64,000 bases of DNA from NCBI GenBank assembly GCA_023375675.1, contig JALQBC010000016.1:248001-312000 (forward strand), written 5' to 3'. Origin of the DNA: Cytospora piceicola (taxonomy: Eukaryota; Ascomycota; Sordariomycetes; Diaporthales; Cytosporaceae). The notes under the pieces were generated by a model, which saw nothing but the letters and a program-made list of their open reading frames with translations, was not told the DNA's origin and did not search any database. Below are positions 3,701-37,275 of this stretch, one piece after another (position 1 is the stretch's first letter; every line of letters starts with the position of its first letter). The translations under genes were made by a program, and so were the position numbers.

Positions 3701-6700
3701 AAAGTTAAAAAGCTTTATATCGATATAATACGCTAAGAAAAACTATAGTATATAAAGTATTATAATTAAACCTAGTATATAAAGAATAAAGTACTTAAAT
3801 AATAGCTTTAAAAGCGTTAAAAAAGATAAGATCGATAGTATTACTAAGGTTATAAGTAAAACCGAAAGGGTTAAAGGCTATAAAGTTAAGTTTATTAGCT
3901 TATATAATAATCCGGTTATTTAGTCTTATATAGTAACTATAATTAAACTATTAAGTTTAATAAATAGCGTTAAAACTACTTATAATAATAAAGCCGTGTA
4001 AAACTATATATTATTTTAATTAATTTAAAACTTAGTCGGTTTTTAACTATTAGCGGTATAAGCTTATAAATACAATACTATTAACAGACATAATATAATA
4101 GTATAATAAATCTAATAAACGTAGTTAGTAAACTAAGTAATAAAGAAGTTTTTTAATATAAGTAATAAAAAAAGCCTATATTTAGTTTTTTTATAAAAGT
4201 AAATATATTATAGTTTAAGTAAGTTTTAATAAAACGGCGTTACGTTTTAAGTTTAGCTTATAAGTTTTAAATAAAACCTATACTAGTATTAGCTTTAAAA
4301 ATAAAATTAAAGCTAATATTATAACTTACACCGAAAGCTTAAACGTTAGCTTAAAACGTAATAAGTTTTTTAAAACGGTATATATTATCTAGTTTAAGGT
4401 CTGGATTTATTAGTAAAGCGGTTATAGTAAGTTAAGGCAGATATAAAAGGCTAGCCTTTAAGTAGTTATAGGAAGGGTTCTTATTACTGTTTATAATCTT
4501 CTATAAGGGAAGATTTTAAGTAGCTACTATAATAGTACGCTAAGCAGAGATTATATTACTTTAAAGCCGTTATAGTGTAAATATAGCGTTATAACGTAGG
4601 CTTCGGCCTGTATATACCGAAGCTTTTATAAGCTTTACCTTATAATAGTAGATAATATTTATAATAAAAAGGTTAAAAACTAATATAATACTTAAGAAAA
4701 AGATAAAACAATATTTTAAACTAATTTTAATATAAGTTTAAAAAAGTTAATATAAATCGAGTCCGGTTTATTAATAATAACGTTAATTAATAGTACTTAC
4801 GTAGTTAAATATATAGCCTGAAATTTATTAGCTTTAAAAATAAATATAAAGTTTAAAGTTATTATATAATAAAATATAAACATTATCTGTTTTTATATTT
4901 AAAATAAGCTAAATAATTAAAAAAGATTTTAATATATAATTCTTAATAGTTAACGTATTATAAATAGTTTTTATATAGTAACTTATAATTAAGCTTATTA
5001 TAGTTAAACTTTTATTTTATATAATAGTTATTATATAAGTTATTAAGGTTTATATACTAAGTATATTATATAACTTATATTTTATATTTAAAATATTTAG
5101 TTAATAAGAAATTTAAAAGTTTAAAACTAGTTTAAATTAATTAAAGACAAATATTTATAGTTAAAAGATTTATTAAAATAATACTAAAAAAGTAATAGCT
5201 AATAAAAACTTATTTAATAGCTACTTTCACTTTAACTAAAAAGAAGCTATATATATTATATTTACTACTATTAAAACGGCAGAATATAATAGATATATAA
5301 CTTATAATTATTATATACTAATAGTATAAAGCGGTAAGCTTAATTTTAAAGTTATAGCTATTAAAAAATAGCTAAAGTATAAAAATATAAATATAAACCG
5401 ATTAATAGAAAAAGTATAATATAAAACTAATATAAAACCTTTTTACTTTTATAATTTTATATAAAGTAAAGCTTATAATAGTTTAAATAATAACTTTAAT
5501 TTTTATTAAGAAAATATTATACTACTTATATATATATAAGATTTATAAAAGAAATAATTATCGGTTTTAAAGTTAAACAGTTTAATTAAATAAATAAATA
5601 AAGTTAAAGTTTATTATAATAAACGTAATTAACGTATAATATTATTTAATAGAAGATTTATAAATCTTATAATTATACTAAAAATAAAAAGCGTAGTAAA
5701 GGTAATTATATATAGTTTTATAAAACGTAAAAGATATATAAAAGCTATAAATAAAGTAATTAATATATTAGTTTAAAGCTATTATAATTAGTCGGTAATA
5801 AACAGGTTAAGCTAATTATATAAATATATATTATAAAGGGTTATATATTTAAATAAGTTATTTTAGTTAAATATTAAAAGTAAATAAAAATAGTAAAATA
5901 TTATAATAATAGCTATAAACACTTTAATATAAGCTTATTTATTTTTCTTTTCTGCTTATAGTAAAATAGTAATAAATTATTAAAGTAATAGTTAAACTAG
6001 TTTTTAATATATATAAAAGTTAATAAAAAGAATAAATTCGATTTAATTATTTAAAATCTTAGCTATATATAAAGTAATATCGGTTATATAAAAGAAATAT
6101 AATATAAAGATAATAATAAGCCGAGTAGTTAATAATAAAGTATAAGCTATATTAATAAGATAAAGTAAAAAGGATATATATATTAAAAACTTAATTACTA
6201 TATAAAATCTTAATAAATTACTATAGTTTTTAAATAATTAAATAATATTTTAATTAAAAATATTATAAACTAATACCTTTTAAAGTATATATGTTTAGTT
6301 AGTAGTATATAAGATATTATTTAATATATTTTATTCTCTTAAATACTTAGCTTAAATATTTTCTCTTTTTTTTAAATAGCTTAAATAATACTTCTTTTAA
6401 GTATTTATTAAATTCTTAACTATAAGCTAGCTTTTTATATTTATTTAAGCTATTTGTTTAATCGGCTTTATTAAAAGTATACCGAAATTTATAGAAAAGC
6501 CGCTTTTATTTACTATAAAATTAAACTAATAAGTTCTTCCTTTTCTTAAATAGTTAATATACTATAAAAACCCTTAGTTATAGTTAGTTTTAATATATAC
6601 AAAGTTTATAATATATAAGAATATAATTAGAAGTTTTTAAACTTAGTTTTTTTTATATATTTAGTCGATTAAATAGTTTTTTATAAGTATTATTTTTATT

Positions 6701-31856: not shown

Positions 31857-34084
31857 TGAATCGAAGTGGAAACTGGATACTAGCAGCTTAAAAGGAAGGA
31901 AACCTCCAGGCCAGAGGTGGATATCTAAAGAGGCAGGAGGTGAGGGACACAGACCACGGTGGTCTCCATTCCTGGGGAGTGTGTTTACTTTTAAGTCCTC
32001 TGCCCAGGGAATGCGCATGCAGATCATAAGTTCGGAGGAACTGACCATACCGCATATACGGCTGTTCGATGGGCGGTGTGGTATCATGAACCATGCCTAC
32101 TAATACCCCCATCTCAGGTCTAGCTCACTGCTCTTGCAGGCTCAAGGGAAGTTGGGTGCGCACAGAAAACGATGATACCATCGAGAGAGTCAGGGGATGA
32201 CATAGGGGAGCATTGGAGATGCTGCAGGTCCAAGCAGGAGACAGGGAGACGTATTTAACCGGCAACTCTTATAGGGTAAGAGCAGATGCCGATCTTATAG
32301 GACGCACAGGATTAGAAGGAGAGGCTCGGCGGGCTGGCTCACTTGAGCACCAGAGAACAGTTGGAGGGTACCGTGAGTTTGCCAAGTGATACAATAATTG
32401 GGCAAATTGCTTGCCTGGCATTCCAAATTAGATAGCTTGGAGATAGGCTGGAATGTGTGCGTGTCGGAGAAGCGTGAATAGTTATCTGGTGCTGCTTGCA
32501 AGACATTGTTGTTTATACCCGGGCGGAAGAGGCGGCTGCTTATGCACAAGCCCAATGTGATGTGACCATGATGGAAGACCTGCTCCGCGTTATACAAGAC
32601 CAAGACAATACTTCTGCACGGTCGGTGGAGACCGTCGTGTTGAGTAGAGTCTGCGAATATATTGCACATGAATGAGGGGTGCTGACAGAGGAGGAAGACA
32701 AGGATGTTGGGTGTCGATGGACAAGGGAGTAAGCCCCTGGAGATAATCCCCTATATTGGATAGACTTTGCTCCACGGCATGGGTTGGATGTGAAAAACCT
32801 GGGAACCCTGTAAGCACCCACCGCTTTTGAAACCATGCGCAGCTGGAGGCGTACGCGATCCACCTGGAATTCCTGAACTGGAACAAGAACCGCCAGCAGG
32901 TTGGAATCCCAAGAGGTTGGCAGGATCGCAAAATCGAGAAATCCATGGAGCAAACGCGGCAGAATGTCGGCCACGAAGGTTGGCGAGCTGTATCCGAGAG
33001 ACATCTCCAACGTCATCTGCCAGGTATCATGGGTATTCTTCGATGCTGCTCCCAAGGCTGGTAGATCGCCAATAGCTCGTCTACCATTGATCAGCAGGCC
33101 CATCCGGAAAGGAAGCCGCATGGGGAGTTTTCCGCTCTGCCGATACCGGAAATCCTTGAGGGACATGGATTCGTTTGCTCCTCGTATGAAGCCAGGTAGA
33201 GAGAAAGTCGCGGCGGCTGGATTGCATGTACTGCAGTGGCACGAGATGCTTGTCTCGGGCTGTTGTGACCAGAAGGCAGAAAAGTTCCCGAACATGGACA
33301 GGCTTGGGAGGCAGCTGGGACGAACAGCTGTTCGCCCTGTATCTCGTGCTGACGTCCTTGGTATCATGGTGACCACATACTTCAGCAAGCTAGGATTGGC
33401 GGCTCTTGCAAACACCCTCTTTTGCGGGGAAAGTGTTCCCCGACGCCGACATCTGCCGCTATGGGTGTTGTTAGAGCTGCAGGTGGCCGGCCCATTGGGA
33501 CGCACGCGTGAGTTGCTGTGTAAGCGCAGACATTCCGTCTTCAAGTGCTGCGAAGGACTAAAGCCTATCAACCAAGTTCATCTCCCCCCGGGGGAAGGAT
33601 AACACCTCTTTCGTAAGTCGGAGCCTCGAGGTCTATATCGGCTCGAATTCCATTCAGCCCGGATCTGGCATACTCCGAGATGCATGTCAGAAACAGTATC
33701 TGCAAGTGATCTCTCGTGCCATATGGTGGTCGTTGGTTGACTACAAGCACTGTCCGTACTCAAGTATGCAGTAAAGATACCTTGACGTACTTAGCCAAGT
33801 ACGTAGGATGAGAGGGGTGTCAGGTCAGTGAAGATAGGATGGAGGTTGTGATATGAGCTGGATGAGAGAGCCTCTCTGACTGTTATGAACGAATATTTCT
33901 GAATAAGGTTGGGAAGGAGGATGAAATGGTGTGCACGGGTCAACAACTGCCGCCTGCTGATCCGCCCGTTTATTTCCTTCCGTCTGGGGATCGACCGCAC
34001 GTGCATTACCTTTCTCCTGCATGGCTGGATCAGTTTAGTGGGTAACGCTAGTCAAAGGCTAACACGCCATTGGCCACCGTTTCG
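31857..34084. other. 2.2-kb region without a resolved gene
   Basis: Upstream of the GH47 gene. It has long open frames on both strands around 32540-33602, but none with a recognisable motif or normal exon structure. One stretch (32834-33060) reads like a decayed exon and is listed separately. Confidence 0.5.
32834..33061 (+). pseudogene. Possible gene remnant
   Basis: One frame reads as about 70 balanced, charged residues (LEAYAIHLEFLNWNKNRQQ ... GWQDRKIEKSMEQTRQNVG ...) bounded by a TGA just upstream and a TAG downstream. It has no start codon and no convincing splice sites. Its composition looks more protein-like than the overlapping long frames (plus 32901-33602, minus 33571-32540), which are Ser/Arg-rich like antisense frames. 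Possibly an isolated exon or a fragment of a degraded gene. Family not recognised. Confidence 0.3.
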
Positions 34085-34098
34085 TTATCAGTACTGTG
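34085..34098. repeat. Target-site duplication, left copy
   Basis: TTATCAGTACTGTG, identical to 34626-34639. The last bases merge with the (TG)n tail of the adjacent element, so the true length is about 12-14 bp. Confidence 0.75.
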
Positions 34099-34390
34099 TG
34101 TGTGTGTGTGTGTGTGTAGTATTTAACCGCCGTGAGGCCGTAGGCCGGCGGGGCTTCCTCAAGTGCTTAAGCACTGACTAACAGATTCCCGCTCGGTAGT
34201 TCCTACGGCCAGAAAAACCTCCCTGGGGGTATATGGCGTGGCTACGTACAGTGCTAAGATACAAGACCCTGACTCTGCCTAGCCATTCCTTAGGCGTAAA
34301 GCGCGAATGTCATCCCAAACTTCCATCGCCCTGTCCAATCGGGCACAATCGAAGTGTAACTCAGCTCCCGAGAGAGAGTTACGTAAGTTG

Positions 34391-34476
34391 TCTCCGTAAA
34401 GGAGATTTCTTTCCAAGGCCTTCCTTATCCAAGGGAAGGCCGGGGTTTTAAGTCCCCCTTATCCAAGGGGGGACTT
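34391..34476 (-). other. Cluster of stem-loops in the SINE body
   Basis: Three hairpins in 86 nt (plus-strand notation): TCTCC-gtaaa-GGAGA (34391-34405); GGCCTTCC-ttatccaag-GGAAGGCC (34417-34441); AAGTCCCCC-ttatccaag-GGGGGACTT (34450-34476). The last two have different stems but the identical 9-nt loop. In the minus-strand RNA the loop reads CTTGGATAA. Confidence 0.75.
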
Positions 34477-34536
34477 CCGTTATGAGAGCAACGGATCCCT
34501 ATCGTTGAGGATGATAAGCCCGGCATGGTTATGTCG

Positions 34537-34625
34537 AGGTCGGGGCAGGATTCGAACCTACGACCTTAGAGTTTTGTCCATTCTCCAAGGTAGCCAAGTG
34601 TAGTAACCAATTACACCACCCGACC
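34537..34625 (-). ncRNA. tRNA-related head with Pol III promoter
   Basis: Clover-leaf ends are intact: a 7-bp acceptor stem, and a T arm GTAGG-TTCGAAT-CCTGC. The D arm can form GTGT/ACAC with an 11-nt loop. The anticodon arm does not fit a normal 7-nt loop, even if a 13-nt intron is allowed, so no isotype can be given. It is interpreted as the promoter-bearing head of the SINE-like element and not as a working tRNA gene. Confidence 0.65.
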
Positions 34626-34639
34626 TTATCAGTACTGTG
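34626..34639. repeat. Target-site duplication, right copy
   Basis: TTATCAGTACTGTG, immediately next to base 1 of the tRNA-like head. Matches 34085-34098. Confidence 0.75.
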
Positions 34640-34840
34640 GTACGGCACGGGAGAGACGGAGGTGTCAGGGGAACCCCCTGAATGCCCCCTCCGTTTAGCC
34701 ATGGCACCACAAGCTGGTGGACTACAACAAACAGTCTTCATCTTCATCTTCAACTTCGTATTACATTATGCTCATATATTCCATTCCGTTGTCCCATTTT
34801 GATGTTCATACCTCACGCGTCTCCCAGCACAGCTGGCTTA

Positions 34841-37275
34841 TTACCCCGTCAAGGTAAACTCGTTGCTCGTCCCATTGAACGCCGTAATCGTCCCTCCGAT
34901 GCTCTTCCAATCGCCATAATACACAGTCCTATACGTCCCCTCCTCTGCATAGCTCTCCGTCTCCCAGCTGATGGTAACGTGGCTGTACCCTAGCATGCTG
35001 TTCGTCCTCTCCCACGTGTAGACAAGGTGCCAGTCGTAGTCGCTTCGCACTTGCGTCCACGTGTTGTCCGGCCCCAACTGCTCGATGGCGGCAAAGGTAT
35101 CTTCTAATCGGAGGTTGTTGCGCGGGTTGGCACCGAGGAAGGTCGTGTTCACCACATCCCCGATCGAATACGAGGAGCTGGGCTGCGTGATTACGTCGCC
35201 GAAATCCGAGCCGAGGGGCGTGCCGTCGTATACGACGCCGGCGATGAAGTCAAGGGATACGGTGCGGTGGTCAGGGGGGCTTGGCCCTGCTGCTGGGGAG
35301 CCAGTGGCTGTAGGAGCAAGGTATTGCAAGTTGCTGACCGTCAGGTTGATGTACGCGTTTAATTCGTTCTGTCCGAAAAGCGTTGATGCGCCCTCGTACC
35401 GTTGGATGGCGTACTCCTCTGGGGTGGTCACATAGTGAGCGTAAGTGTTGGCCGGTCCACCCAGCACGACTATAGGCTCCGTATCGCTGCTGTATGTCGC
35501 AGAAGCCTCTTCTTTCACAGCGTTGCGCCATCTTCGACCAGCCATGGTCGTCGCCTCGCTCGGAGTGACGATGATATGTAGCTGGCCCACGCGGAAGGAC
35601 TGCACATCCACGATATTAGGAGCCCACGCATATGGAAGTTCTGCCTGTCCGACATCCAAAAGGATGGGTTTCGGCCATTGGCATGCGATTTGTTTGGGTC
35701 CAGGAAGAGCGATCAGATCAGATACCAGATTCCATAGAGGATTGTTGGCCAGACCAGAATCGGCTTGGGTAAAATCAAATGCGCCAGGCCAGTCTGCGAG
35801 ATGAAGGTTAGTATATACTCGTTTAAACGAGGGATAAATGAAAGCCTTACCAGTGGTACCGGCTGCAAAAGATGCCCCTAGAGCAGCAGGGCATGTTTCG
35901 ACTGTTGTGCCGTTGGGGAGTGTGAACTCGAAGTAGGACATGTCCTGGTAGAAGTGGAACGACTTCACAGTAGTGCCAACCACCGGTGTAGACTGTGTGT
36001 CAAACGCATCGTACAGATCCTTGGCACCCTGAAACTGACGCCTGCCCATCTCGTAGCAAGAACTAACTCCAAGGTCGAGAGCCTCGAACATAGGCCCTCG
36101 ACCGTGACACGACTGGGACTTTCCGTCCGCGCAGGTGCTGTTTTCGTAGCTGCACATGTCCCCCGAACCATCATCGCAATAGGCTCCGAGGACGTTAGGC
36201 GTGGTGTCTCCTACGTTGGCCTGGGAAAATCCAGCCACAAAGCCTCCAGCGGCTGTGTCGTCAGATGCCATGGCCTGCTCGAACAGGTAGGCTGCCACCC
36301 CCTTGTTGTCGCCAGCCACGTGGGTGTTGTTCCCGTACATGGACGTTCCGTGGACGGGGTACCATGATAGAACTCCCATGTTTAGGCCATCAGAGGCACG
36401 CTGGAACCGGAGCATGGTCATGGTCGTGTCGGTGGTGGTGTCGTACAGGGCACGCTCCTCGGCCGGGTTGTTCATGTAGGAATACAGACTGCGGCTGAGG
36501 TTTCCATCGGTAATATTCACAGTGCCAACGTCGAGATAGCCAGTCGTAAGGCTCTCGTGGGCTCTCTTGATGGACAGGACGGCCCCGTCAATGATGGCAT
36601 TAAGAGACTGTGCATCTAAGCCGGTACTCGTGATCTGGGGGAGCAAGTAGTTCCACCAGGCGCCGGGCCCATTGTGCTGATGTGTGCCTGTTACGGCTAT
36701 ATTCGACTGCCCATAGACAGAGTACTCTTCCCCGAGAGCAGCAAGACTTTCGAGGATACCATAGCGCTGAGCAGTGTCGCCTGATGCAGCATCCAGGACC
36801 AAGTAAACAAAGCGATCTTCCGGGTTGTCGACATCGCCAATAATGAAAGCTCGCGAATACACACGTTGGCGAAGACCGGTTCCGATCTGGCTCAGGTCGG
36901 CGTATCCGGCGAATTCAACTTCAACGACAGGTCCAGTAATATCAGCCTTGCCGACTCCGATCCTGTTTGATAAGGACCATGGTAAGCATACGGGACCGAG
37001 GAACATGACAACACTCCCAGGAAAACAACTCACAGATACTGGTCGCCTGTTGCTGAACCCCTGACTTTGGAGGTTAACAGTTTTCTAACTTCTTCGGCAT
37101 CGTCAAAGTTGACATCTCCAACCTCCTCGGAACCAGTCGCAGGTACCTTCGGCGTCTGGTTGCTGCTAAGCACAGAGATGGTGAGAAGTCCAAGGGCGAT
37201 GACAGAGAAGAGAGCAAGAATGCTGAAGATCCCCCTTCGAGGCGCGTCGCGCTCTTTAGATATAGTTTGGTTCAT
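34841..37275 (-). CDS. Neutral ceramidase-like protein, divergent active site
   Basis: Exons 37275-37034, 36962-35851 and 35793-34841; introns of 71 and 57 bp; 768 residues. A single N-terminal membrane anchor (about 15-36, FSILALFSVIALGLLTISVL) suggests a type II or secreted protein. The neutral/alkaline ceramidase domain starts at IGVGKADITGPV. It includes GTHQHNGPGAWW, WYPVHGTSM..AGDNKG and ANVGDTTPNVLG, and the C-terminal beta domain ends the protein. The family hydrolyses ceramide to sphingosine and fatty acid with a zinc ion. The family motif is NxGDxSPN; here the serine position is Thr (about residue 335), and THTHSGPG-type sequence reads THQHNGPG. The second intron (GTAAGG..TACTAAC..CGCAG) keeps frame and has no stop, so it could be overlooked. 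Spliced sequence AGTTDWPGAFDFTQ matches the family better. Confidence 0.88.

Follow-up and report, generated by a model that had tools for sequence, protein, structure and literature searches.

What is the tRNA-headed sequence that lies between two copies of a 14-bp repeat in the window (the whole 64,000-nt stretch of DNA analysed, C10:248001-312000 in a genome of 99 contigs and 43.6 Mb), and, if it is a mobile element, what moves it? We conclude that it almost certainly belongs to a tRNA-derived SINE family with a LINE-like 3′ end. The SINE identity, proposed by a sequence-only reading of this DNA, is confirmed by the head, by 3′ blocks resembling those of a LINE, by four dispersed copies that each carry their own target-site duplication (TSD), and by a LINE with the same 3′ end in the same genome.

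The SINE runs from 34625 to 34099 on the minus strand, an orientation that the sequence-only reading had left unstated, and is 527 bp long (Table 1). In order along it come a tRNA-like head, a hairpin-rich stretch, LINE-like blocks, a terminal hairpin, TTAAATA and (AC)n. The arrangement of its ends is as the sequence-only reading described it: the 14-bp TSD, TTATCAGTACTGTG, is present in exact copies at both ends, the head abuts one of them and the (AC)n tail meets the other. The head begins at tRNA base 1, and the tail continues into the TSD. Abutting direct repeats of at least 14 bases, with up to 3 bases of slack allowed per junction and low-complexity places counted in, turned up in 233 (0.12%) of 200,000 intervals of 527 bp drawn at random from the window. 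What is decisive is the separate duplication in each of the four copies found. No minus-strand ORF of at least 90 aa overlaps 34085-34639, and a plus-strand ORF of 90 aa (33909-34181) extends into the SINE region. A ceramidase gene on the same strand has its stop about 200 bp upstream of the SINE. The ceramidase shares 88% identity with its best match, 86% with the Cytospora mali enzyme and 80% with the Diaporthe eres enzyme; this one protein points to a host within the Diaporthales, probably Cytospora or a near relative. Between the ceramidase gene and the SINE lies a TCTTCA microsatellite of 3.8 copies (34735-34757). Elsewhere in the window, an ORF at 30222-31067 matches positions 154-280 of the 455 positions of Glyco_hydro_47 (E 1.2e-24) and probably represents a single exon belonging to a GH47 gene.

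Table 1. Features of the SINE and its neighbourhood, in window coordinates.
Feature	Position	Strand	Basis or remark
TSD copy, tail (3′) side	34085-34098	.	
(AC)n tail	34099-34117	-	sequence
LINE 3′ UTR block 2	34119-34258	-	SINE 368-507 = about nt 5918-6022 of LINE C11
LINE 3′ UTR block 1	34277-34361	-	SINE 265-349 = about nt 5657-5741 of LINE C11
Hairpin-rich body	34362-34536	-	hairpins at 34450-34476, 34417-34441, 34391-34405
tRNA-derived head	34537-34625	-	Rfam RF00005, 38.1 bits (cut-off 29)
B box GGTTCGAATCC	34548-34558	-	within tRNA-like head
Anticodon-like arm, 9 bp	34563-34591	-	predicted cloverleaf of SINE head
A box TGGTGTAATTGG	34607-34618	-	within tRNA-like head
TSD copy, head (5′) side	34626-34639	.	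exact 14-bp match to 34085-34098
Neutral/alkaline ceramidase gene	34841-37033	-	Pfam PF04734/PF17048

The prediction of a multicopy family with a common head, 3′ region and (AC)n tail, each member between its own TSDs, was borne out. Full copies occur at four places on four contigs, C10 (the window), C25, C90 and C36, a count that is a lower bound for searches with the SINE and a divergent copy as queries. The copies fall into subfamily A (C10 and C25) and subfamily B (C90 and C36). With the tail excluded, a single substitution in 506 bases separates the two A copies, of which C25 has the longer tail, and 11 substitutions in 496 bases separate the two B copies. Between the subfamilies, identity over nt 1-125 is 82% (C90) or 78% (C36), and in the 3′ part it is about 70%. 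All four TSDs are exact, 14, 16, 14 and 13 bp long, and no two are alike (CACAGTACTGATAA, ACACACCTGGGCACAG, CATGTGCATGTCGA and ACCGTGCCCACCA, in SINE sense). The head begins at tRNA base 1 directly after the TSD in three of the four copies, and C90 has one additional T. The repeat aside, the flanks of C10 and C25 are unlike each other over 40 nt before the element and about 35-50 nt after it.

Each part of the SINE was then compared with its possible sources. In the head, the perfect acceptor pairing and the two promoter boxes noted earlier are all present: the predicted fold of the window copy pairs 7 of 7 acceptor positions, and the boxes were placed with the A-box and B-box consensus. Where a tRNA would have its anticodon arm, a 9-bp stem closed by a loop of 11 nt is predicted. 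ARAGORN reported no tRNA in the window (bacterial mode) and none in any of the four SINE copies when introns were allowed. A normal tRNA gene was rejected on this result and on the unusual arm, and an ordinary tRNA gene, alone or together with an ncRNA, on the TSD in every copy and the LINE-like 3′ blocks; the earlier judgement that this is not a plain tRNA gene stands. Among 54 distinct tRNA sequences compared (scoring covered 63 of the 1659 candidates of a first look, and 50 of 58 listed places were taken), the nearest to the head is tRNA-Val(AAC), which scored 67.5 against the subfamily B head, with the runner-up at 55.5. It is at most a candidate source of the head, and a genome search with the subfamily B head returned the four SINEs only. 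Between A and B, the head has three double changes, two in the extended arm and one in the T arm. As many arose in 67 of 500 shuffles and the comparison covers 3 distinct sequences, so the double changes are suggestive only as support for the predicted pairing.

The sequence-only reading placed a single body of about 400 nt behind the head. The hairpin-rich character of the first part stands; the body is a composite, in which a subfamily-specific hairpin-rich stretch is followed by LINE 3′ UTR blocks. Body nt 1-36 (34501-34536) can still be aligned to subfamily B, and the remainder is specific to subfamily A: the alignment score of the A and B bodies is 15.0, shuffled sequences average 14.5, and 212 of 500 shuffles score as high. 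A 35-base pattern of the body hairpins, searched with up to 3 mismatches, has 2 genomic sites, both in subfamily A. The stretch 34375-34520 folds with a z-score of -2.45, and none of 100 shuffles folds as well as the full-length RNA of 527 nt (z -3.97). The neighbouring subfamily A hairpins at 34450-34476 and 34417-34441 have a common core, CCCTTGGATAAGG, as if one were a copy of the other.

Comparing the 3′ end with LINEs of the species, as the sequence-only reading had suggested, showed that much of the SINE's 3′ half corresponds to 3′ UTR sequence from a LINE in the same genome. Block 1 is 82% identical to LINE C11 over 85 nt, and block 2, which contains a SINE-only insert and ends in a hairpin (34127-34151) and TTAAATA, is 74% identical over 140 aligned columns. 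The matching SINE segments are 265-349, 374-437 and 472-507; over the last of these, subfamily A and C11 agree in 35 of 36 bases. A search with the hairpin pattern GGCCTACGGCCNCACGGCGGTTAAATA, allowing up to 3 mismatches, found 10 genomic sites, namely the 4 SINEs and 6 LINEs, and the reversed control found none. On its own, the 3′ hairpin is unexceptional in stability (z -0.63, with 51 of 200 shuffles as stable), and its alignment, with 91.7% of cells paired, contains no compensatory change or covariation. From the C-terminus of related proteins, ORF2 of the C11 LINE probably ends at about nt 5470; the matched blocks lie beyond this point, and hence within the 3′ UTR.

Six LINE places match the 3′-terminal 1.9 kb (C11, C68, C82, C69, C79 and C9), and C67 has two further short partial matches. 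C11, C68 and C82 match the SINE in its 3′ half only and sit in 6.0-kb elements that are collinear throughout, with pairwise identities of 83%, 73% and 77%. Exact 14-bp duplications flank the LINEs at C11, C82 and C79, and duplications with 2 mismatches those at C68 (14 bp) and C9 (15 bp); for C69, the 5′ end was not found in the stretch examined. All six places are riddled with stops and show the marks of repeat-induced point mutation (RIP) where read, three of them whole and three over 1.9 kb: stops number 118-187 per forward frame in the whole copies, and 41-62 in the last 1.9 kb of the others. Accordingly, no working partner LINE was seen among them. The broken C11 frame, with X at stops, matched only RVT_1 in Pfam, and that weakly (E 4.7e-4; 20.4 bits, below the cut-off of 29.6), and a 5′ piece of this LINE had no Pfam match. 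The 751 residues of the frame that were searched, a stretch outside the RNase H part, match EN-RT-RNase H proteins, with 77 matches at E ≤1e-10 among 7993 candidates. The best has E 2.2e-128 at 36% identity and the best named one, from Metarhizium hybridum, E 5.5e-121 at 35%, and the leading named matches come from Metarhizium, Fusarium and Hirsutella. Two of these relatives, P0121 and P0124, align over the 751 residues and carry PF03372, PF14529, PF00078 and PF00075. The EN-RT-RNase H make-up is thus read from the protein relatives, and from their domain order and fungal hosts we infer that the LINE is Tad1-like. Other reverse transcriptase matches were seen elsewhere. Two stop-bearing remnants lie to the left of the window (C10:226769-227218 and 246121-246573). 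At C58:36130-36612 a match falls inside a stop-free open frame of 1476 aa, possibly an intact retroelement, and C58 is absent from the 10 hairpin sites. C65, which combines a dense tRNA cluster with two matches containing in-frame TGA, is probably the mitochondrial genome.

All 12 substitutions between SINE copies are CpA/TpA transitions on either strand (11 of 11 in the B pair, 1 of 1 in the A pair); were transitions random, 11 of 11 in the B pair would have a chance of about 3e-7. RIP targets CpA/TpG (PMC12543289), and we read these transitions as its footprint. Composition indices agree with the substitution pattern. TpA/ApT is 1.66-2.07 in the LINE places, 1.79-2.12 in SINE B and 1.35-1.39 in SINE A, compared with 1.14 in the whole window and 0.80 in the ceramidase gene. 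(CpA+TpG)/(ApC+GpT) is 0.03-0.23, 0.46-0.58 and about 0.8, respectively, compared with 0.97 and 1.07. Mutation of the SINE is light, and that of all six LINE places, where read, is heavy. In length, the SINE is close to the minimum on which RIP acts in Neurospora. Block 1 bears the same mark: its mismatches pair a SINE C/G with a LINE T/A in 10 of 15 cases for C11, 20 of 25 for C68 and 19 of 24 for C82, an excess expected if RIP struck the LINE later.

The tails do not follow the rest of the 3′ end. All four SINE copies end in (AC)n, and all six LINEs in ATCT/ATCC repeats, so the simple-repeat tails of SINE and LINE are not the same; a common tail is usual for a SINE and its partner LINE, although not required. 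In the window, the dinucleotide repeat spans 34095-34117 (11.5 copies) and reaches 4 bp into the TSD, where CACA could be assigned to either. Counted by eye in the four copies, the first 4, 6, 2 and 2 nt of the TSD continue the AC repeat, a total overlap of 14 where about 1.3 is expected (a chance of about 1e-6 for random junction bases). This overlap fits priming in which the RNA tail base-pairs with the nicked target, and an endonuclease preference for sites with such bases would give it as well.

Together, the anatomy is most likely that of a SINE that moves by borrowing the reverse transcriptase of this LINE. Pol III would transcribe the element from the A and B boxes of its tRNA-like head, giving an RNA that would end in a copy of the LINE 3′ UTR. 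The LINE reverse transcriptase would recognise the hairpin near its end (CCGCC-GGCC-UAC-GGCC-UCA-CGGCGG, with UUAAAUA after it). At the target, the (AC)n tail would then pair with the nicked end and prime reverse transcription there, and a duplication of 13-16 bp would be left. Internal T runs (T5 in subfamily A; T6/T7, T5 and T4 in subfamily B) could stop pol III early.

Two other accounts would deny that this is a SINE family at all. A structured ncRNA gene that adjoins an ordinary tRNA gene, or is fused with one, might explain why the full RNA folds so well and why the head exceeds the Rfam tRNA cut-off; no second Rfam family matches in the window, and an undescribed RNA would be compatible with that. 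It is nevertheless hardly credible, given that the four copies are dispersed, differ in their flanks and have exact TSDs, that 3′ blocks are common to the SINE and a LINE 3′ UTR, and that ARAGORN reports no tRNA. The 3′ part does look like a LINE 3′ UTR with an internal deletion, and the copies are only four, as they might be if the element were a one-off chimera, made by template switching of the reverse transcriptase onto a tRNA or by internal deletion of a LINE, and not a self-propagating family. Yet the same head start and tail recur in full copies at four places, which fall into two diverged subfamilies, and such a distribution means that the composite was copied repeatedly. We therefore consider a one-off chimera very unlikely, while template switching is a fair account of how the SINE family first arose.

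A further alternative concerns the partner and is compatible with the tRNA-derived SINE identity. The SINE could owe its movement to an (AC)n-tailed LINE that escaped detection, in which case the six LINEs with ATC tails would be no more than cousins of the true partner. The mismatch of tails in every SINE and every LINE speaks for it, as does the nearly unmutated state of subfamily A beside six LINE places that are heavily mutated where read. On the other side, the hairpin scan with up to 3 mismatches disclosed no other LINE, and subfamily A is nearly identical to LINE C11 at the hairpin end. We regard a different partner as unlikely, though worth keeping in view. A further proposal, which we make tentatively and hold to be rather improbable as a whole, is that the SINE kept the LINE hairpin, swapped the tail so that (AC)n picks the targets, and, being only lightly hit by RIP, outlives its LINE. 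If this were true, (AC)n and not ATCT/ATCC would choose targets by pairing with the nicked end; a SINE barely above the length that RIP detects would be lightly mutated while the LINE was destroyed; and the SINE would depend on an intact LINE brought in by mating.

SINEs with LINE-derived tails are an established class, for which PMC3747384 tables the fungal pairs Mg-SINE/MGR583 and SINE2-1_BG/Tad1-24_BG, and PMC5063351 names seven fungal SINEs. The expectation that few SINE families are described in filamentous fungi holds in number, and the present SINE is less unusual than had been supposed, since LINE-tailed SINEs were already known. Mg-SINE of Magnaporthe is likewise tRNA-derived and of similar length (472 bp; PMC5063351) and is likewise paired with a LINE, MGR583 or MgL (PMC3747384); likened by description only, it has about 100 copies (PMC5063351) compared with the 4 found here. 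In Blumeria graminis, SINE2-1_BG is again a tRNA-derived SINE with a Tad1 LINE, Tad1-24_BG (PMC3747384); by description, barley powdery mildew is said to be without RIP (PMC10648671), whereas the present SINE and LINE bear changes of RIP type. AfuSINE2-1a of Aspergillus fumigatus, listed with I-1_AF, is tRNA-derived, and between positions 210 and 335 it is similar to a Tad-clade LINE's 3′ UTR; AfuSINEs are not abundant, like the present SINE, and AfuSINE2-1a is described as ending in ACT repeats where ours ends in AC (PMC5063351). Foxy of Fusarium oxysporum is a fungal SINE family described as active, with ca. 160 copies by that description compared with 4 found here (PMC5063351). A literature search with Repbase and most subscription journals outside its reach found no paper on a Cytospora SINE retrotransposon, and none with a Valsa mali SINE in its title or abstract. 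Set beside the named fungal SINEs by description, the element appears to be a new family of a known kind, and as far as its anatomy shows it would work like the known LINE-tailed ones. What distinguishes it is a very low copy number, unrelated subfamily bodies, light RIP and an (AC)n tail unlike that of the LINE.

With this finding, the few fungal SINE/LINE pairs named in the papers cited above are joined by one from a Diaporthales-like fungus. Since SINE and LINE have the hairpin in common and the tail not, the pair makes it testable whether fungal LINEs read a 3′ hairpin or a tail repeat. With 12 of 12 SINE changes of RIP type beside six LINE places heavily mutated where read, it also makes testable the fate of a short parasite under RIP.
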